A DNA stretch of 64,000 bases. Origin: Thomasclavelia sp. (GTDB taxonomy: Bacteria > Bacillota_I > Bacilli_A > Erysipelotrichales > Coprobacillaceae). Below, one piece after another: positions 5,718 to 33,524 of this stretch (its first letter is position 1; the number at the start of each line of letters is the position of its first letter). The stretch lies in contig JAQVWN010000006.1 in assembly GCA_028749475.1 (NCBI GenBank), forward strand, positions 1 to 64,000, read 5' to 3'. The translations under genes and the position numbers were made by a program. The notes under the pieces are model-generated. The model was not told the DNA's origin. It did no database searches and worked only from the letters and a program-made list of their open reading frames with translations.

Positions 5718-6371
5718 ATGGAAGAAAATGAAAAAGAAACTAAAGTAGAAGGAAAAGAAGTAAAGAAAAAGAGTAAAAAAGAAAAGAAACCAAGAAAACA
5801 AATATTTAATTCTTTAAATATTACTTTACTAGCAGTTGCTTTAATAATTGCTGGTATATTTGGTATTAAAGTAGTAGATAATCAAAGTAAAGAAGAAGTA
5901 AGTACAAGAGTACTTAGAGAAAAAGTAGAAGCTTGTTCTGATTTAATAACTACTAAAGTCCATCTTTATGGATTAGTTGATTATGATAATAAGAAGATTC
6001 CTTTTCTAACTCAAGATTCTTATAGTATGGTTTATGAAGCTACTGTAAGTATTGGAATAAATATAAAAAAAGTTGATGTTAGTACTAGTGGTTCTAAAGT
6101 AATAGTAAAAGTACCAGAAATAAAAATAAAGAGTATTAATGTTGATCCTGATTCAATTGAATACTATGATACTAACTTTGCTTTATTTAAAGGTGATAAT
6201 AAAAAAGCAGCAGTAGCGGGTATTAAAAAAGCTAAAGCTGATGCTAAAAAGAAATTAAATATGAAAGATTTAAAATCACAATCTAAAAAACAAATCAAAG
6301 CTCTAATAGATAATTTGTTTAAAGATAATATTGGGGATAAAACACTTGATTATGATTTTTATGACAAATAA
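5718..6371 (+). CDS. DUF4230 family membrane-anchored protein
   Basis: 217 residues. A lysine-rich cytosolic tail (1-34) is followed by one membrane segment (about 36-55, ITLLAVALIIAGIFGI) and an extracytoplasmic domain. The segment YSMVYEATVSIGINIKKVDV followed by VIVKVPEIKIKSINVDPDSI is characteristic of DUF4230 as I recall the family, whose function is unknown. The start ATG has GATAGGGAG upstream. A 40-codon membrane peptide gene follows 15 bases later, probably in the same transcript, ending at the terminator at 6616. Confidence 0.75.
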   Translation: MEENEKETKVEGKEVKKKSKKEKKPRKQIFNSLNITLLAVALIIAGIFGIKVVDNQSKEEVSTRVLREKVEACSDLITTKVHLYGLVDYDNKKIPFLTQDSYSMVYEATVSIGINIKKVDVSTSGSKVIVKVPEIKIKSINVDPDSIEYYDTNFALFKGDNKKAAVAGIKKAKADAKKKLNMKDLKSQSKKQIKALIDNLFKDNIGDKTLDYDFYDK

Positions 6372-25447: not shown

Positions 25448-26086
25448 ATGAGTAAGATGCAAGAAATTAGTGAACTAGTTCAAAAAGGGAGAAGTAAAGA
25501 AATTGTTGGGGTTGTTCAAAGTGCAATTGATAATGGAGAAAAACCTAATGAAATTATTAATGATGGTCTATTAGCTGGAATGGCAATTGTCGGACAGAAA
25601 TTCAAAAATGAAGAAATATTCGTGCCTGAAGTTTTAATTGCTGCAAGAGCAATGAACAAAGGAATAGAAGTATTAAAACCATACCTACAAGATAATGGAA
25701 ATGTTAGTAAAGGGAAAATAGTCTTAGGAACAGTAAAAGGTGACTTACATGATATTGGTAAGAATCTTGTTCGAATTATGATGGAGGGAAAAGGTATTGA
25801 GGTTATCGATTTAGGAACTGATGTATCTGCCGAGACTTTTATTGAAGAAGCTAAAAATAACAATGTGGACATTATATGTTGTAGTGCATTATTAACTACA
25901 ACCATGCCAGAAATGGAAAAAGTAGTTCAATTAGTTAAAAATAATCATTTAGATTTTAAGATAATGATTGGTGGAGCACCAGTTAATCAAGAATTTTGTG
26001 ATCAAATAGGAGCAGACTATTATACAGCTGATGCCGCAACAGCAGCTGATGTGGCTTCTCAAATAATTGGAGGTAAATCATGTTAA
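25448..26086 (+). CDS. Corrinoid (B12-binding) methyl carrier protein
   Basis: 212 residues, MtaC/MtbC/MttC-like. The N-terminal helical cap (about 1-85) contains GLLAGMAIVGQKF. The B12-binding Rossmann domain has D99-L-H101-D-I-G104 (GTVKGDLHDIGKNL), where His101 is the lower axial cobalt ligand, followed by CCSALLTTTMPEM and MIGGAPVN. It shuttles a methyl group between a substrate methyltransferase and an acceptor. Start with AAGGAGG upstream. The stop overlaps the next start by 7 bases; it is the first gene of a six-gene operon. Confidence 0.95.
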   Translation: MSKMQEISELVQKGRSKEIVGVVQSAIDNGEKPNEIINDGLLAGMAIVGQKFKNEEIFVPEVLIAARAMNKGIEVLKPYLQDNGNVSKGKIVLGTVKGDLHDIGKNLVRIMMEGKGIEVIDLGTDVSAETFIEEAKNNNVDIICCSALLTTTMPEMEKVVQLVKNNHLDFKIMIGGAPVNQEFCDQIGADYYTADAATAADVASQIIGGKSC

Positions 26087-27162
26087 CAAAAGAGAAAAAA
26101 GAACAATTAATTTGTGATAGTGAAGCTTGGTGGAATCATCAATTAGATCGTTCTTTAATTCAAGTTACACTTACTCCAAGCAACCTTCCTTTTTCTAGAG
26201 GAGAATTGTTAGATTTATGCTATGACTATAGTATTCCAGCTAGCCAAGTAGCTAAAGATTATAAAGAGAATATAGAAAGGACTATTTATCTAGGTGATGC
26301 TTTTCCTCAATTCTATATGAGATCAACTGGTATTTTAGGTGCAATGCTTGGTCAAGGATGGAAAATAAGTAAGGAACACGGAACTATTTGGTATCAAGAG
26401 TTAAATAAAGAATTAGAAGATATTCATTTTGATTCTAATTTAGATAATAATGAATTATTTGATAGAGGGATGGATTTAATAAAAGCTTTCCAAGATGAAT
26501 TTGGAGATGATATTGCTTATGGCATTCCCAATCTAGGAGGAATGATGGATATTGTTGAATCAATGCGTGGGGCCAACAATTGTTTATTAGATTTATATGA
26601 TGAACCTGAAGAAGTATTAAGGTTAAATAATGATATTTATCAAGCTTATGAAAAAGCATATAAGGAATATATTCAACAAATTAGTACTAATAATGGATTG
26701 GGTTATACAGGATGGATAACTCTTTTGTCTCAAAAACCATACTTTATTTCTCAATGTGATTTTTGTTGTATGGTTGGTCACGAACAATTTGATGAATTTG
26801 TGTTTGATACTTTAAACAAAGAATCCCATTTAATAGATCGAGCATTTTATCATTTGGATGGTCCAGGGGCTGTAAAGCATTTAGATGATATTTTAAAATG
26901 TGATTTTGATGGAATTCAATGGATTAATGGAGCCGGTTCCGAACCACTGGATAGTCCTAAATGGAATGAAATATATGATAAAGTGCATGCTGCTGGTAAA
27001 TTATTACAAGTATATATATATGGAAAAGAAGAACTTAAATTTATTGATTATATTGTTAACTATTTAGGCACTACGAAAGATTTAGCCTTTATTTGTACAG
27101 GTAATGAGGAAGACAAGGAAGAGTTTATAAAATATCTTGATAAGTATCATATACCTCATTAA
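26080..27162 (+). CDS. Uroporphyrinogen decarboxylase-like (UroD/MtaA superfamily) protein, putative methyltransferase
   Basis: 360 residues. The C-terminal half has the UroD-like barrel pattern: FYHLDGPGAVKHLDDIL, DGIQWINGAGSEPLDSPKW, and DKVHAAGKLLQVYI. It is divergent from the second UroD-like gene of the operon (29170) and lacks that gene's clear H-x-C / C zinc set. Placed directly behind the corrinoid protein, it is a candidate for the substrate-side methyltransferase, but the methyl donor cannot be predicted. It is not heme-pathway HemE, which has a different N terminus and context. Confidence 0.7.
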   Translation: MLTKEKKEQLICDSEAWWNHQLDRSLIQVTLTPSNLPFSRGELLDLCYDYSIPASQVAKDYKENIERTIYLGDAFPQFYMRSTGILGAMLGQGWKISKEHGTIWYQELNKELEDIHFDSNLDNNELFDRGMDLIKAFQDEFGDDIAYGIPNLGGMMDIVESMRGANNCLLDLYDEPEEVLRLNNDIYQAYEKAYKEYIQQISTNNGLGYTGWITLLSQKPYFISQCDFCCMVGHEQFDEFVFDTLNKESHLIDRAFYHLDGPGAVKHLDDILKCDFDGIQWINGAGSEPLDSPKWNEIYDKVHAAGKLLQVYIYGKEELKFIDYIVNYLGTTKDLAFICTGNEEDKEEFIKYLDKYHIPH

Positions 27163-28550
27163 TGAGTACGATTCTAGAGTATTTAAGAGAGCATGGCACA
27201 TTTATAAATGCTCCTTGTAACGGTGAGGGGTGTTGTGGAAAATGCCTCGTTAAAATAAAAGAATGTCCTCCCCTTACCAAAAAAGAAAAACAATTGTTAA
27301 CTCCAACTCAGATATCTAAAGGATATGTCCTTGCATGCCAACATGAGATGAAAGATATTACAATTATTTATGAAAACCATGTTGGTGATATCTTGAGTGA
27401 CGTTGATACTATTAAAGGTAATAACCAAGAAGGTTATGGAGCTATAATTGATCTTGGTACAACAACAATAGTCTTTAAATTAATTAGGTTAAAAGATGGA
27501 CAAATAATTAAAACTATTAGTGAATATAATCATCAAGTTAGTTATGGAAGTGATGTAATTAGCAGAATAAAATACGATACTAATCATCCTAAAGAATTAC
27601 ACAAGATTATTATTTCTCAAATCGATAATATCATTCAACTAGTTGATGAAGAAATTCAATATTTATATGTTTGTGGAAATACAACTATGATTCATCTATT
27701 TAATGGAATGAATACAAGTAGTTTAGGTGTTTATCCTTTTAATGTACCTTGCCTTGGTATATATGAATCTAATAATCTCTTTTCTAAAGAAATCCGAACT
27801 ATTACTCTACCACATATTTCAGCTTATGTTGGAAGTGATATTGTAATGGGAATTTACTCATTAGATATTGATGAAAAAGAAAAATATAATGCTTTAATAG
27901 ATTTGGGGACAAATGGAGAAATAGTGGTTGGCAATAAAGAAGAAATTATCACAACTTCTTCACCCGCTGGACCAGCGTTTGAAGGACAAAATATGGAATG
28001 TGGTGGACCTAGTTTAAAAGGAGCTATCAGTGAAGTGTGTCTTAATGAAAAGATTAGTTTTAAAACTATTCAAAATGGTAAACCTATTTGTATTTGTGGA
28101 AGTGGAATAATCTCTTGTATTGCTGAGCTTAGAAGAAAAAATATTATTAATGAAATGGGTATGTTTTATGATGGGCGAAAACAATTCAATCTTATAGATG
28201 ATATTTATATATCTCAAAAAGATATTCAAAGTTTCTTACTAGCTAAATCTGCAGTTAAAACAGGTTTAAAGATTTTGTTAAATAAAATAAATGAAGTAGA
28301 TAAAATATATATTTCTGGAGGTTTAGGTAATCATTTAAAAATAGCTGATTTAATTACTTTAAAAATGATTGATGACAAATATCAAGATAAGATTGTTATC
28401 GTTGACAATACAGCTCTTCAAGGGGTGTATCGCTATTGTTTAAGTAATGATCAAAAGAGAGTAGAAAGAATAATTAAAAAAAGTGTAAATATTGATTTAT
28501 CACAAGATGAAAACTTTCAAGATGAATTAATAGATGGTTTATATATATGA
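27162..28550 (+). CDS. Reductive activator of corrinoid proteins (RACo/RamA-like, DUF4445, 2Fe-2S)
   Basis: 462 residues. The N-terminal ferredoxin-type 2Fe-2S domain has C19, C25 and C28 (APCNGEGCCGKC) and C59 (LACQ). The rest is the ASKHA/DUF4445 domain with AIIDLGTTTIVFKLI, VCGNTTMIHL, NALIDLGTNGEIV, CGSGIISCIAELR and ISGGLGNHL. Such proteins use ATP to reduce accidentally oxidised Co(II) corrinoid to the active Co(I) state. It starts on the last base of the preceding stop codon. It strongly supports a working corrinoid methyl-transfer system. Confidence 0.92.
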   Translation: MSTILEYLREHGTFINAPCNGEGCCGKCLVKIKECPPLTKKEKQLLTPTQISKGYVLACQHEMKDITIIYENHVGDILSDVDTIKGNNQEGYGAIIDLGTTTIVFKLIRLKDGQIIKTISEYNHQVSYGSDVISRIKYDTNHPKELHKIIISQIDNIIQLVDEEIQYLYVCGNTTMIHLFNGMNTSSLGVYPFNVPCLGIYESNNLFSKEIRTITLPHISAYVGSDIVMGIYSLDIDEKEKYNALIDLGTNGEIVVGNKEEIITTSSPAGPAFEGQNMECGGPSLKGAISEVCLNEKISFKTIQNGKPICICGSGIISCIAELRRKNIINEMGMFYDGRKQFNLIDDIYISQKDIQSFLLAKSAVKTGLKILLNKINEVDKIYISGGLGNHLKIADLITLKMIDDKYQDKIVIVDNTALQGVYRYCLSNDQKRVERIIKKSVNIDLSQDENFQDELIDGLYI

Positions 28551-29173
28551 TAAAAATAATTAGCTGCCAAATATTTGAAGAATATCTTAATTTACTTTCA
28601 CTTGATCAAACACGGTATGATATAGAATATCTGGAAATCAAACAGCATCTCCAACCTGGACATTTATCGAATGAAATTCAAAAGTGCATTCATAATTCTT
28701 CGAAGTATGAATTAATAATACTTTTATATGGTTTATGTGGAAATATGCTACTAAATATTCATAGCGAAGGTGTGCCTCTACTAATAATGAAAGTTCATGA
28801 TTGTTTATCAATACTGATAGGTAAAGATAAATATCAGGAACTTATAAAAGATGATGCTTCCATTACTTGGACATGTTCTTCACTGGAACATCATGGAGGT
28901 CCCCAAATTACAGAAGATAATTATCGACAATGGGTTGAGGAGTATGGTGAAGATAATGCCTTATATTTAAAGGATATACTAATTATCAAACCTAAATACT
29001 ATGTTGATTTTGAGCACTCAAATATTAAAAATATAAATATTTTAAAAGGTGATTTAAACATTTTAAAAAACATAATTAAGGGAGATAAAAGGTATTGTTT
29101 ATTTCTAAATGAAAATGAAGAAATACGGCTTACTAATGATACTGAGGTAATAGAAAAGAGGAATAAAGAATGA
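28547..29173 (+). CDS. DUF1638 family protein
   Basis: 208 residues. Matches DUF1638 as I recall it: MIKIISCQIFEEYL..., YELIILLYGLCGNMLLNI, VPLLIMKVHDCLSILIGKDKY, and an YRQWVEEYGEDNA segment. The family is usually found beside corrinoid methyltransferases and activators, and its function is unknown; the conserved Cys, His and Asp (C-G-N, VHDC) hint at metal or substrate binding. Four-base overlap with the activator gene and a 4-base overlap with the next. Confidence 0.8.
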   Translation: MIKIISCQIFEEYLNLLSLDQTRYDIEYLEIKQHLQPGHLSNEIQKCIHNSSKYELIILLYGLCGNMLLNIHSEGVPLLIMKVHDCLSILIGKDKYQELIKDDASITWTCSSLEHHGGPQITEDNYRQWVEEYGEDNALYLKDILIIKPKYYVDFEHSNIKNINILKGDLNILKNIIKGDKRYCLFLNENEEIRLTNDTEVIEKRNKE

Positions 29174-30174
29174 ATTTAAATCAATGGTTAAAAGAAGTAA
29201 GAAAAAAAGAAAACAAAAAGGCTATGCCCATCTTATCATTTCCGATAATTCAAAAAATGGATATAACTGTTAAGGACTTGGTAACTAGTGATAAACTTCA
29301 AACAAGTAGTATGGAATTATTAAATAAAGAATGTGATTTACTAGCAGTTCTTGGATTAATGGATTTATCAGTTGAAGCAGAATGTTTTGGAGCAAATGTT
29401 AGATTTGAGGATGATGAAGTTCCCAATATTATCGGACATATTATTGAAGACAATGAACAAGCTAATAATCTTAAAATACCACAAGTTGGAACTAAAAGAA
29501 GTGGTTTATATATTAAAGCATTAAAGAATGCCAAGAAGGTTATAACAGATAAACCAGTATTTGCAGGATGTATAGGACCATTTTCATTAGCCGGAAGGTT
29601 ATTAGATGTATCTGAAGCTATGATTCTTTGCTATGAAGAACCAGAAATGGTTCATATTGTTTTGGATAAGGTTACCAAGTTTATCATTGAATATTTAAAA
29701 GCTTATAAAGAAGCTGGGTTAGATGGTGTAGTTCTTGCAGAACCATTAGCCGGAATATTATCTCCTGATTTAGCTAAAGAATTCTCTCATAATTATGTCA
29801 AAGAGATTGTTGATGAGTTACAAGATGAAAACTTCATTATTATTTATCATAATTGTGGAAATAATGTTATAAAGATGACAGATGATTTATGGGAATTGGG
29901 ATGTCCTATTTATCATTTTGGTAATTCTATTAATATTGGAGAAATACTTTGTAAAGCACCTGATGATGTAATTGTAATGGGAAACATTGATCCAGTATTG
30001 ATAAAAAATGGAACAAAAGATAATGTTATTAAGGAAACAAAGAATTTATTAAATCAATTTGGTGATAAAGAAAACTATATAATATCTTCTGGATGTGATA
30101 TTCCTCCAACATCATCATGGGATAATATTAATTCTTTTATAAATGAAGCTAATAAGTATTATCAAAACAAATAG
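29170..30174 (+). CDS. MtaA/CmuA-type methyltransferase (UroD superfamily)
   Basis: 334 residues. Shows the zinc site typical of MtaA/CmuA enzymes, which activates a thiol or substrate: H227-N-C229 (IIYHNCGN) and C309 (SSGCDIPP). The barrel motif GNIDPVLI and the glycine-rich FAGCIGPFSLAGRLL are also typical. In methanogens MtaA moves the methyl group from the corrinoid protein to coenzyme M. In this bacterium the acceptor is unknown, and no tetrahydrofolate methyltransferase is in the cluster. The last enzyme gene before the regulator. Confidence 0.88.
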   Translation: MNLNQWLKEVRKKENKKAMPILSFPIIQKMDITVKDLVTSDKLQTSSMELLNKECDLLAVLGLMDLSVEAECFGANVRFEDDEVPNIIGHIIEDNEQANNLKIPQVGTKRSGLYIKALKNAKKVITDKPVFAGCIGPFSLAGRLLDVSEAMILCYEEPEMVHIVLDKVTKFIIEYLKAYKEAGLDGVVLAEPLAGILSPDLAKEFSHNYVKEIVDELQDENFIIIYHNCGNNVIKMTDDLWELGCPIYHFGNSINIGEILCKAPDDVIVMGNIDPVLIKNGTKDNVIKETKNLLNQFGDKENYIISSGCDIPPTSSWDNINSFINEANKYYQNK

Positions 30175-30222
30175 TTTGTAATCTGTCTTACTTTATTTAA
30201 TAATATGGTAAGAGGAAATAAA

Positions 30223-30933
30223 ATGACGAAGAAATACGAAATTATAAAAGAAGATCTTATTAATAAAATTTCAAATGGATTATATGTTCCAAATAAAATG
30301 TTACCCTCAGAAAGAGAACTAACTGATTATTATAATGTTTCAAGAATGACAATTCGTAGAGCGTTAGATGAATTAATACAAGATGGTTTATTAATTAGGA
30401 AGAGTGGAAGTGGAGTTTTTATTTCTGAGGAGAAAAAAACTCGTAGTTTTGATAAAATATCATTTCAACATGATAGTCATCTTCATCAAATATATGGTGA
30501 TATCAAAATTAAACTATTAGAATTTAAAGAAGTTACTAATCATCCTATTGCAATTAAATTATTACGAATTCAAAAAGATGATGTTGTTTATCAATTAAAA
30601 AGAATTCAATATTCAAAAGATCAGATAATAGTATATGAAAACATATTTCTACCAAAAAAATATTTTGGAAATCTTACTAAAGAACAATGTAACCAATCCA
30701 TGGAAGATATTGTTTCTAAGTATTGCAAAATTGAATGCAATAATAATGATGTTGAAGTAGAAGTCTTAAAGGCTTCTAAGAAAATAAGTACTTACCTCCA
30801 AGTTCCTTTTGATTCAGCAATCTTACGATTAAATATTATTCAAAAGAAAGATGACCAACCTATTTATTGTGGAGTGGATATGTTAGATGGTAATGAATAT
30901 AAATATGTTCAATCAAGTAGATATAAAATATAG
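30223..30933 (+). CDS. GntR family (HutC/UTRA) transcriptional regulator
   Basis: 236 residues from the ATG at 30223, which has AAGAGG 6 bases upstream; a possible ATG at 30205 precedes that site. The N-terminal winged helix reads MLPSERELTDYYNVSRMTIRR and GLLIRKSGSGVFI. The C-terminal UTRA ligand-binding domain (about 75-236) includes YQLKRIQYSKDQIIVYENIF and LRLNIIQKKDDQPIYCGVD. It closes the corrinoid operon and probably represses it at the 25376-25415 palindrome until an effector, perhaps the methylated substrate, binds. Confidence 0.92.
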   Translation: MTKKYEIIKEDLINKISNGLYVPNKMLPSERELTDYYNVSRMTIRRALDELIQDGLLIRKSGSGVFISEEKKTRSFDKISFQHDSHLHQIYGDIKIKLLEFKEVTNHPIAIKLLRIQKDDVVYQLKRIQYSKDQIIVYENIFLPKKYFGNLTKEQCNQSMEDIVSKYCKIECNNNDVEVEVLKASKKISTYLQVPFDSAILRLNIIQKKDDQPIYCGVDMLDGNEYKYVQSSRYKI

Positions 30934-30983
30934 TAATAACTAGATAAAAATAATCAGTATTTTACTGTAGCTATATTAATTTG

Positions 30984-30989
30984 TATAAT
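30984..30989 (+). promoter_or_regulatory. -10 element before the cobalamin riboswitch
   Basis: TATAAT about 20 bases upstream of the riboswitch start. No strong -35 is evident. Confidence 0.45.
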
Positions 30990-31009
30990 GACAAAGAAGT
31001 AAAGAAAAT

Positions 31010-31150
31010 TAAATACACTTGTGAATTATGGAATCAGGTATAAGCCTGAGCGGTCCCGCCGCCGTAATGAGGAGTTTAGCAAATGTCACTGGGAAACTGG
31101 GAAGACGCGAAAACGATGAATCAAAGCCGGAATACTTGTTCACATTTTAA
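31010..31150 (+). ncRNA. Cobalamin (B12) riboswitch
   Basis: Conserved blocks in order: GGAATCAGGTATAAGCCTGA, then GCGGTCCCGCCGCCGTAA, then GTCACTGGGAAACTGGGAAG, GCGAAAACGATGAATC, and the B12-box-like AAAGCCGGAATACTTG. Flanking CTTGTGAA and TTGTTCAC can pair as P1. A terminator stands 45 bases downstream, so bound B12 should switch off the following operon. Confidence 0.95.
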
Positions 31151-31193
31151 GATGAATACACTTTACGGAGTATAAAGTAGTTCTTTAAAAAAG

Positions 31194-31223
31194 AATGGGT
31201 GTATTATACCCATTTTTATTTTT
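31194..31223 (+). terminator. Riboswitch-controlled terminator
   Basis: Stem AATGGGT / ACCCATT with a T-rich tail, between the riboswitch aptamer and the first gene of the B12 operon. Confidence 0.8.
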
Positions 31224-31248
31224 CAGTCCTACATTAAAGGAGAAGAAA

Positions 31249-32337
31249 ATGAAAAAAATAATTATTTGTTTAAGTATTTGTTTAACTATTATTACTGGCT
31301 CATTAACTAATATTAGTGCCAGTACAACTATTGATAACTCATATAATAAATTAGTAGCTTACTATGAGTCAAAGACTAGTGCTAGTCGCGATGATATTAT
31401 CGCTATGGAAGCGATAGGTGTCCAAGCGGATAGTAAAGCTAATCTTGATTTCTTGGAAAATGATTTTAGTACAGCGGGAATTAATGATTTATCAAAAGCT
31501 ATTTTAGCTTCAATCTTTGTTGGAAAAGATCCAACAAATATTAATAATCAAAATTTAGTAACACTACTTGAAAACTATATTAGTGATGATGGAAAACTAA
31601 TGGATGGAGAATATGAATGTTATGAATCATATTATCCATGGACTATCTATGCTTTATATGCTGTCAATTCTTCAAAAGTAGAACTACTTGCTAGTAGACT
31701 GGCTAGTCTTCAAAAAGAAGATGGAAGTTTTGGTGGATTTTCTGGCAGTTTAGATTTAGATACAACGACTTGGTGTTTAGAGGCTTTAAGTCTAGTCGAT
31801 AAAACTAAATATAGTAGTAATATTAATAAAACAAAAGATTTATTAGCTACTCATTTAGACACTACAACTAATACCTATACTTCTAGTTGGGGTGCTAACT
31901 CCAATACTCATGCTGCTTGCTTAGAAGCTTTAGTAGTAAATGATCGTAATTTAGTAAACGATGAATCATATAATAAAACTGTGGAAGCTTTAACGGCCTA
32001 TCAAACTACTACGGGTTCATTTAAGTGGAAAGTAGATAGTGCTAATGATTCTTCGTTTTCTACACAAGACGCGGCTAGATGTCTAGGAGCGTATAAAAAT
32101 GGCTGCTTTGCAACGATTGCTAAAGAAGCTTATCAAAAACTTACTAATAAAGAAACACCAGTAACTAACCCTAGTGTCAATGTGCCAACTAATCAAAATA
32201 GTAATTCAAGTCCTAAAGAAGCTGTTCTTTCAGCAAAAACTTCTGATAATCAAGAATATGATATTTATTTATTATCACTTATCATAATGGGAGCAGTTAT
32301 TATAAGGTTGGTCAGTAAACATGAAAAAACTAATTAG
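31249..32337 (+). CDS. Surface alpha-toroid (prenyltransferase/terpene-cyclase-like) protein, putative B12-capture subunit
   Basis: 362 residues from the ATG at 31249 (AAAGGAG upstream; the frame open from 31195 is leader). Signal peptide MKKIIICLSICLTIITGSL. Residues about 30-310 are helical repeats of the alpha6/alpha6 toroid class, with QW-like blocks SLQKEDGSFGGFSGSLDLDTTTWCLEAL and LTAYQTTTGSFKW. A Pro/Asn/Ser linker leads to SAKTSDNQEYD, a membrane segment and the tail RLVSKHEKTN. The N-terminal domain of intrinsic factor and transcobalamin has this fold. Under a B12 riboswitch and beside a DUF4430 gene, a B12-binding role is the best inference. Confidence 0.75.
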   Translation: MKKIIICLSICLTIITGSLTNISASTTIDNSYNKLVAYYESKTSASRDDIIAMEAIGVQADSKANLDFLENDFSTAGINDLSKAILASIFVGKDPTNINNQNLVTLLENYISDDGKLMDGEYECYESYYPWTIYALYAVNSSKVELLASRLASLQKEDGSFGGFSGSLDLDTTTWCLEALSLVDKTKYSSNINKTKDLLATHLDTTTNTYTSSWGANSNTHAACLEALVVNDRNLVNDESYNKTVEALTAYQTTTGSFKWKVDSANDSSFSTQDAARCLGAYKNGCFATIAKEAYQKLTNKETPVTNPSVNVPTNQNSNSSPKEAVLSAKTSDNQEYDIYLLSLIIMGAVIIRLVSKHEKTN

Positions 32338-32989
32338 TAAATTTAAACAACTAGACATAACTAAAAAAGTAGTAATTATTTTTATTGCTGGTTCTTTATT
32401 ATTTACTGTTGGCATTGCTTCTATCAATGCTTTAAATGTAAGTTCTAATAATGTTGCTGCTGGGCAATTTCCTAACATCAAGATAAAAGAAGAAACAACT
32501 AATCAAAGCACTAATAAAGATGCTATAGATAATTCCACTAGTAATGATTCCAATAATTCTAGTGAAAAAGAAAATAATAATTCAACTAGTAACTCCAATG
32601 ATTCAACTACTAAAAGCAGTAATAGTAATTCTAACTCTCAAACTAGTAGTAGTGAAACTACTACTAATCCTAAAGAAACGATTACAATCAGGGTAAAGAT
32701 TACGGGTGTCAATAATACTATTGCTTCTGGAAGTGTTAGCGTAGAAAAAGATGCTTCAGCCTATAGTACTTTAAAAGAGTTTTGCACTTCAAAAGGAATT
32801 AGTGTTTCAAGTAGTGGCTCAAATTCTTTTGTGTATGTCAAAGGAATTAATGGTCTAATGGAAAAACAACATGGACCTCTTTCTGGATGGATGTATAAAG
32901 TAAATGGGAGTTCTCCAAATGTTTCAGCTGGTAGTTATTCACTATCTAATAATGATCAACTAGAATGGTACTATACAAATTATGAGTAG
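32321..32989 (+). CDS. DUF4430 (transcobalamin C-terminal-like) membrane-anchored protein
   Basis: 222 residues. A membrane anchor (about 16-38, VVIIFIAGSLLFTVGIAS) is followed by a long Ser/Asn/Thr linker (about 55-115) and then the DUF4430 domain (about 118-222): ITIRVKITGVNNTIASG, SAYSTLKEFCTSKGI, GINGLMEKQHGPLSGWMYKVNG and NDQLEWYYTNYE. DUF4430 corresponds to the beta domain of intrinsic factor/transcobalamin. It overlaps the toroid gene by 17 bases and the transporter gene by 8, so the three are tightly coupled. It probably forms a two-part cobalamin receptor with the toroid protein. Confidence 0.85.
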   Translation: MKKLISKFKQLDITKKVVIIFIAGSLLFTVGIASINALNVSSNNVAAGQFPNIKIKEETTNQSTNKDAIDNSTSNDSNNSSEKENNNSTSNSNDSTTKSSNSNSNSQTSSSETTTNPKETITIRVKITGVNNTIASGSVSVEKDASAYSTLKEFCTSKGISVSSSGSNSFVYVKGINGLMEKQHGPLSGWMYKVNGSSPNVSAGSYSLSNNDQLEWYYTNYE

Positions 32990-33524
32990 AGTTAAAGAAA
33001 TAAGTCTAATTGGAATCCTTGCCGCTGTAAATGTATCATCCAGAGTATTTTTACAATCACTACCTAACATTAAACCAGTTACTTCAATCATTATTATTTC
33101 CGTTATGATTTTTGGGCTAGCTTTTGGAGTCAAACTAGCCGTTGTTACAACCGTTGTATCTAATTTATTTCTTGGAATGGGAACTTGGACTTTCTTTCAA
33201 ATATTAGCTTGGGTAGTTATCTGTTTATTAACTCAAATAGTGGTTGATTTATATCATAAATTTGATAAAGAACCAGGGTTAATTTTCATGAGTATCTTTG
33301 CCTTTTTGATGGGGTATGTCTTTGGTTTCTTTGTTTCTTTAGATGCCTTAGTAATAGGTGGTTTAGGTTATTTTCTAGCCTATATAACTTCGGGATTTTT
33401 ATTTGATACTTTGCATGCTTGTGGTAATTTTGGCTTTTATCTATTATGTGCACCAATTATGATTAAATTATTTAAAACTAAAATAACTACTTCTAATGAA
33501 TATATTAGTCAAAAGGAATCTTAG
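32982..33524 (+). CDS. ECF transporter S component, probably for cobalamin
   Basis: 180 residues with about five to six membrane segments, beginning MSRVKEISLIGILAAVNVSSRV, typical of ECF substrate-binding (S) components. SGFLFDTLHACGNFGFYLL near the C terminus matches the conserved end of the group to which the CbrT-type B12 transporter belongs, as I recall. The energising EcfA/EcfA'/EcfT module is not here, as expected for shared-module (group II) systems. The B12 riboswitch upstream gives the likely substrate. A terminator follows. Confidence 0.85.
   Translation: MSRVKEISLIGILAAVNVSSRVFLQSLPNIKPVTSIIIISVMIFGLAFGVKLAVVTTVVSNLFLGMGTWTFFQILAWVVICLLTQIVVDLYHKFDKEPGLIFMSIFAFLMGYVFGFFVSLDALVIGGLGYFLAYITSGFLFDTLHACGNFGFYLLCAPIMIKLFKTKITTSNEYISQKES

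Follow-up and report, generated by a model that had tools for sequence, protein, structure and literature searches.

How Gram-positive gut bacteria without BtuFCD capture vitamin B12 is, to our knowledge, poorly known, and no ECF S component is known to us for which use of an extracellular receptor has been shown. A locus in the genome of a Thomasclavelia sp. raises the question of whether two membrane-anchored proteins might serve as such a receptor for the B12 transporter subunit encoded beside them. The locus lies in a 64,000-nucleotide stretch of DNA (contig JAQVWN010000006.1, positions 1 to 64,000; hereafter, the window). A preliminary description, made from the sequence alone, had proposed that an alpha-toroid protein and a DUF4430 protein, counterparts of the two domains of mammalian B12 carriers, hand cobalamin to an ECF transporter.

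The general idea of toroid/DUF4430 B12 scavengers is not new. Burroughs et al. in 2007 predicted a B12-scavenging role for the transcobalamin-like SLBB domains of bacteria, many of which are fused to alpha/alpha toroids, noted that such proteins are encoded with CbiO/CbiQ-type genes, and proposed that animals gained the module from Gram-positive bacteria (PMC1796856). Our search, which was thin on subscription journals and preprints, found no experimental work on bacterial DUF4430 and B12. In this study, we used sequence, fold-model and genome-context comparisons to examine the locus.

A cobalamin riboswitch precedes three overlapping genes

The operon and its leader contain the following features:

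30961..30989, + strand: promoter-like site (TTTACT-17-TATAAT) just 5' of the riboswitch; weak, by consensus only
31006..31157, + strand: cobalamin riboswitch aptamer (RF00174), from a covariance-model match and alignment with 12 relatives
31160..31178, + strand: putative regulatory hairpin, ACTTTACGGAGTATAAAGT, from reading of the sequence and comparison of 13 leaders
31191..31217, + strand: intrinsic-terminator-like hairpin and U tract between the aptamer and the toroid gene; likely expression platform
31249..32337, + strand: alpha-toroid gene; signal peptide and C-terminal transmembrane (TM) anchor
32321..32989, + strand: DUF4430 gene; N-terminal TM anchor, Ser/Asn-rich linker and C-terminal transcobalamin-like beta domain (~123-222)
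32982..33524, + strand: ECF S component gene of the CbrT family (B12), by sequence homology to CbrT

The riboswitch scored 60.1 bits, relative to a gathering score of 31.5 (E 2.1e-12), and was the sole RF00174 match in the 1.84-Mb genome, which is 98% complete. The promoter-like site is one of 24 such sites found in the region, where 15 were expected by chance. The loop of the regulatory hairpin, TTACGG (31163-31168), is complementary to CCGTAA of the aptamer (31062-31067), making a kissing pair possible, and the alignment was read as containing this pair in all 13 leaders, in some of them via G-U. Terminator hairpins were also visible in the leaders of relatives. Because a terminator-like hairpin and a U tract follow the kissing-capable hairpin, transcription termination upon B12 binding is the likely mode of this expression platform, with the bound state being off.

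A ribosome binding site, AAAGGAG (31236-31242), precedes the toroid start at 31249, and the alternative start at 31195 suggested by the ORF caller is less likely. The toroid and DUF4430 genes overlap by 17 bp, and the DUF4430 and S component genes by 8 bp. The riboswitch score and the two overlaps confirm the original reading of a cobalamin riboswitch ahead of three overlapping genes. The TM regions and family matches likewise bore out the assignment of these genes to a C-terminally anchored toroid, an N-terminally anchored DUF4430 protein and an ECF S component. According to hydropathy, the toroid protein has a signal peptide and a C-terminal TM region at residues 338-356, while the TM region of the DUF4430 protein is at residues 17-35 and is followed by the long Ser/Asn linker.

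Directly 5' of the trio is a corrinoid-dependent methyltransferase operon (window 25448-30933), which places a B12 consumer beside the putative B12 importer. It encodes an MtgC-like corrinoid protein, a UROD/MtaA-type methyltransferase, a RACo-type activator, a DUF1638 protein and a GntR regulator. Another of its genes (window 26080-27162) encodes a 360-aa protein with no match in Pfam or NCBIfam, whose position in the operon suggests that it is a methyltransferase.

The S component is related to the cobalamin transporter subunit CbrT

When the S component was compared to the PDB as a single sequence, its sole significant relative was 6fnp_A, which is CbrT (phmmer E 1.4e-24), and the profile search gave the same sole significant match (E 1.8e-28). 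The match to PF12822 fell under the Pfam cut-off for the single sequence and was secure for the profile. CbrT binds cobalamin with a Kd of ~9 nM and imports cobalamin and cobinamide with an ECF motor (PMC5997447). Kinship to CbrT, together with the location of the gene under a B12 riboswitch, therefore argues strongly that cobalamin is the substrate of the S component, as had been predicted.

The ECF-CbrT system of Lactobacillus delbrueckii has in common with the present one a homologous S component and a group II shared ECF motor; it differs in that no extracellular receptor has been described for it and in its operon structure, nrdJ-cbrS-cbrT-pduO (PMC5997447). The Thomasclavelia genome contains one EcfT gene and two EcfA genes, which are adjoining. 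A search of this genome for a FecCD-type (BtuC-like) permease, the component taken to mark a BtuFCD importer, gave no match, while the control of this search was found in 13 of 14 genomes. CobS was also not found in the genome. B12-dependent proteins are present: besides the corrinoid protein encoded in the window, there are a MetH-like protein and a radical-SAM-like protein with a B12 domain. Because of the CbrT kinship, the single ECF motor, the absence of FecCD and CobS and the presence of B12-dependent proteins, this operon is the best candidate for the B12 importer of the cell.

The trio is conserved among Coprobacillaceae

With the S component as query, a genome-wide search yielded 39 loci. 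All of the 17 closest, which by name or placement go with Stoquefichus, Massilimicrobiota, Longibaculum, Faecalibacillus, Kandleria and Sharpea (Coprobacillaceae), carry toroid, DUF4430 and S component genes in this order, overlapping or nearly so. Because the same trio was found in the same order in 17 of 17 close named loci, its arrangement is not due to chance. RF00174 was directly 5' of the trio in 12 of these loci; one locus ends before that point, and the Sharpea/Kandleria-type trio is found behind a metH-like gene instead of a riboswitch. The survey thus recovered the conserved trio under B12 riboswitches that the preliminary description had suggested looking for. Among the 17 same-family genomes covered by both searches, the close-type S component and the toroid were both present in 12 and both missing from 5, a count that was taken over related genomes and is supportive rather than a p-value.

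Both binder genes diverge fast, with mean identities among the loci of 0.35 for the toroid, 0.41 for DUF4430 and 0.69 for the S component. The pairwise divergences of toroid and DUF4430 were correlated (r 0.70-0.80), above the correlation of either with the S component. The partial correlation given the S component was 0.59-0.75 (permutation p 0.0002), from which shared phylogeny is incompletely removed.

The DUF4430 domain has the fold of a transcobalamin beta domain

The DUF4430 profile matched with an E-value of 6e-19 and 68.7 bits, relative to a cut-off of 23.8, which places the domain in the transcobalamin-like clade of the SLBB superfamily. An AlphaFold2 model of the domain, built from an alignment of its own and related loci (pLDDT 95.1), has the beta-grasp fold of the transcobalamin beta domain. 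The top-ranked PDB match of this model was 5no0, the isolated human transcobalamin beta domain, and 17 of the 19 top matches were transcobalamin, intrinsic factor or haptocorrin, with TM-scores of 0.77-0.81 across the entire domain. The remaining two were chains of a Ruminococcus gnavus protein, and E-values rose more than tenfold past rank 19. In addition, a comparison by hhalign between the DUF4430 family and fragments of mammalian beta domains gave an E-value of 1e-5 and a probability of 82. Only the fold search and hhalign revealed this likeness: sequence profiles of the toroid or DUF4430 did not find transcobalamin in the PDB, and a first alignment-wide DUF4430 search returned nothing but noise from the low-complexity linker.

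The toroid gave a less specific result. Pfam identified it weakly as Prenyltrans (PF00432), under the cut-off as a single sequence and securely as a profile, and did not identify Cobalamin_bind, the mark of the transcobalamin alpha domain. Profile matches in the PDB were cyclases, the best being squalene-hopene cyclase. The AlphaFold2 model, also built from its own and related loci (pLDDT 94.9), again ranked squalene-hopene cyclase first, with transcobalamin (2v3n) fifth and intrinsic factor (3kq4) sixth at a TMq of ~0.6; it superposed equally well on cyclases and prenyltransferases as on the alpha domains of transcobalamin and intrinsic factor. Thus, of the expected superposition on the transcobalamin domains, the DUF4430 half stood, while the toroid half was only unspecific, cyclases fitting equally well. 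The toroid model is consistent with kinship to the transcobalamin alpha domain at the level of fold, although no relationship to the alpha domain of the mammalian carriers was detectable in its sequence. A toroid family motif, D-x-T-[AG]-[WM], recalls VDTAAM of transcobalamin as a resemblance only. None of the aligned relatives has a complete cyclase DXDD motif, the position of the last Asp being T, V, I, N or M and never D. Identification of the toroid as a terpene cyclase was rejected because of its secretion, this missing Asp and the operon context.

Distant relatives carry the same domains in other arrangements

In distant Clostridia (L058, L060), a single protein contains a signal peptide, the toroid, two TM helices and DUF4430, and its gene is followed by genes for EcfT, EcfAA' and S; four other loci contain related forms (L050, L062, L063, L068). 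The two helices of this fusion are the counterparts of the two anchors in the split system, namely the C-terminal one of the toroid and the N-terminal one of the DUF4430 protein. Among other Bacilli, L133 has a riboswitch, a lipoprotein with the domains in reverse order (DUF4430-toroid), an N-anchored small protein and S, and L136 and L138 are similar. Judging from these sequences, the split layout is one of several arrangements, with relatives fused both ways. Minimal operons (L129, L131) consist of a riboswitch, a small DUF4430 lipoprotein and S, without the toroid. Three loci (L049, L053, L056) have only a riboswitch, EcfT, EcfAA' and S, and neither toroid nor DUF4430 was detected in them; ECF transport as such therefore does not require the receptor. 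A hand count gave a cobalamin-type riboswitch in 19 of the 24 distant Bacilli loci scanned.

Several loci were unusual in other respects. In Christensenella (L048:1265-5938), an AdoCbl riboswitch (RF01482) is followed by a gene for a 1557-aa DUF4430 protein and then by a CbrT-like S component gene. A 633-aa lipoprotein with seemingly several DUF4430-like repeats (L128:3616-5514) has a cobalamin riboswitch 5' of its gene and a small DUF4430 gene and S downstream. Another locus (L118:1972-2351 and 5805-5939) contains three cobalamin-type riboswitches, two RF00174 and one RF01482, with a 1077-aa DUF4430 protein encoded near S. In one genus (L024-L028), the toroid gene lies 3' of S, with no DUF4430 within 1.5 kb, and in two of these loci (L026, L027), it precedes a gene that, as read from the sequence, resembles cob(I)alamin adenosyltransferase.

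Discussion

Taken together, these results make it quite probable that this is a riboswitch-controlled operon for B12 import, whose extracellular receptor has two parts. In the mechanism that we propose, the terminator would remain unformed and the operon would be transcribed when cellular B12 is low. The two anchored proteins would then close around cobalamin in the manner of transcobalamin, and the closed pair would release it to the adjacent CbrT-type S component, which would topple and be emptied by the single shared ECF motor. We infer cobalamin binding by each protein, the sandwich geometry and the hand-over to the S component. A split clamp is plausible because the alpha and beta domains of human transcobalamin, when expressed apart, assemble only with cobalamin, and those of intrinsic factor behave alike (PMC5599065). 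We give about an even chance to the specific version in which B12 glues the anchored toroid to its anchored transcobalamin-type partner, forming a closed clamp that docks on the S component and loads it.

Other roles for the two proteins must be weighed against this clamp. The DUF4430 protein might be the only one that binds B12 and feeds CbrT, with the toroid being a scaffold, wall anchor or docking partner without ligand contact. The minimal operons that lack a toroid would fit this arrangement, as would the unspecific toroid fold and the binding of CNCbl by the isolated transcobalamin beta domain (PDB 5np4; PMC5599065). We consider it unlikely, however, since the toroid is retained in every close locus, is fused to DUF4430 in other lineages and co-varies with it. 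Still less probable is that the pair is not a general receptor and binds another corrinoid or B12-related ligand, such as cobinamide or pseudo-B12, or strips cobalamin from carriers. The fast divergence of the binder proteins relative to the conserved S component could reflect differing ligands or competitors, and CbrT also imports cobinamide (PMC5997447), but the riboswitch reports only the cell's own corrinoid. We regard as very improbable an active terpenoid-type enzyme or prenyltransferase that is merely co-regulated with B12 uptake; squalene-hopene cyclase and MstE are the best sequence and fold matches of the toroid, but the protein is secreted and anchored, its relatives never have the last Asp of DXDD, and some of them are joined to DUF4430.

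Comparison with known systems indicates what is new. With the systems of Burroughs et al., this one has in common the two domains, their secretion or surface anchoring, an operon setting that involves CbiO/CbiQ-type (ECF) genes and a proposed role in scavenging B12. Unlike them, it consists of two separate, oppositely anchored proteins, and the CbrT-type S component beside them relies on a distant, shared ECF motor. The 2007 study did not include CbrT, riboswitch or fold-model evidence, whereas riboswitch control is shown here by sequence. The CbrT link, the riboswitch evidence, the split architecture and the membrane-hairpin fusions are new, and the system is a split, S-component-linked variant of the 2007 prediction, for which the evidence from context is much stronger. 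Mammalian transcobalamin, intrinsic factor and haptocorrin also combine an alpha-toroid with a beta domain, but they are single soluble chains recognized by CD320 or cubilin, whereas the bacterial pair is membrane-anchored beside a transporter and encoded by two genes, with fusion via a TM hairpin only in distant relatives. Because the single chain and the sequence features of the alpha domain are missing, the pair should not be classified as an intrinsic factor, although it may well act in the same way. The Bacteroides lipoproteins BtuG and BtuH have an analogous role in surface B12 capture that feeds a transporter, but BtuG is a beta-propeller with an outer-membrane partner, BtuB, and its fold is unrelated to the toroid/DUF4430 pair. 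Competition of the pair with host or Bacteroidetes binders is a matter of speculation.

This compact, riboswitch-marked operon with a CbrT relative makes the 2007 prediction testable on three small proteins. If the proposal is true, animal B12 carriers and bacterial receptors would share the beta domain and perhaps the mechanism, with implications for how organisms in the gut compete for B12 and for the proposal that intrinsic factor is of bacterial origin. If the two proteins do close on cobalamin as a clamp, Gram-positive gut bacteria would possess a functional equivalent of intrinsic factor together with its receptor, and the module that animals may have acquired would have a living relative in them.
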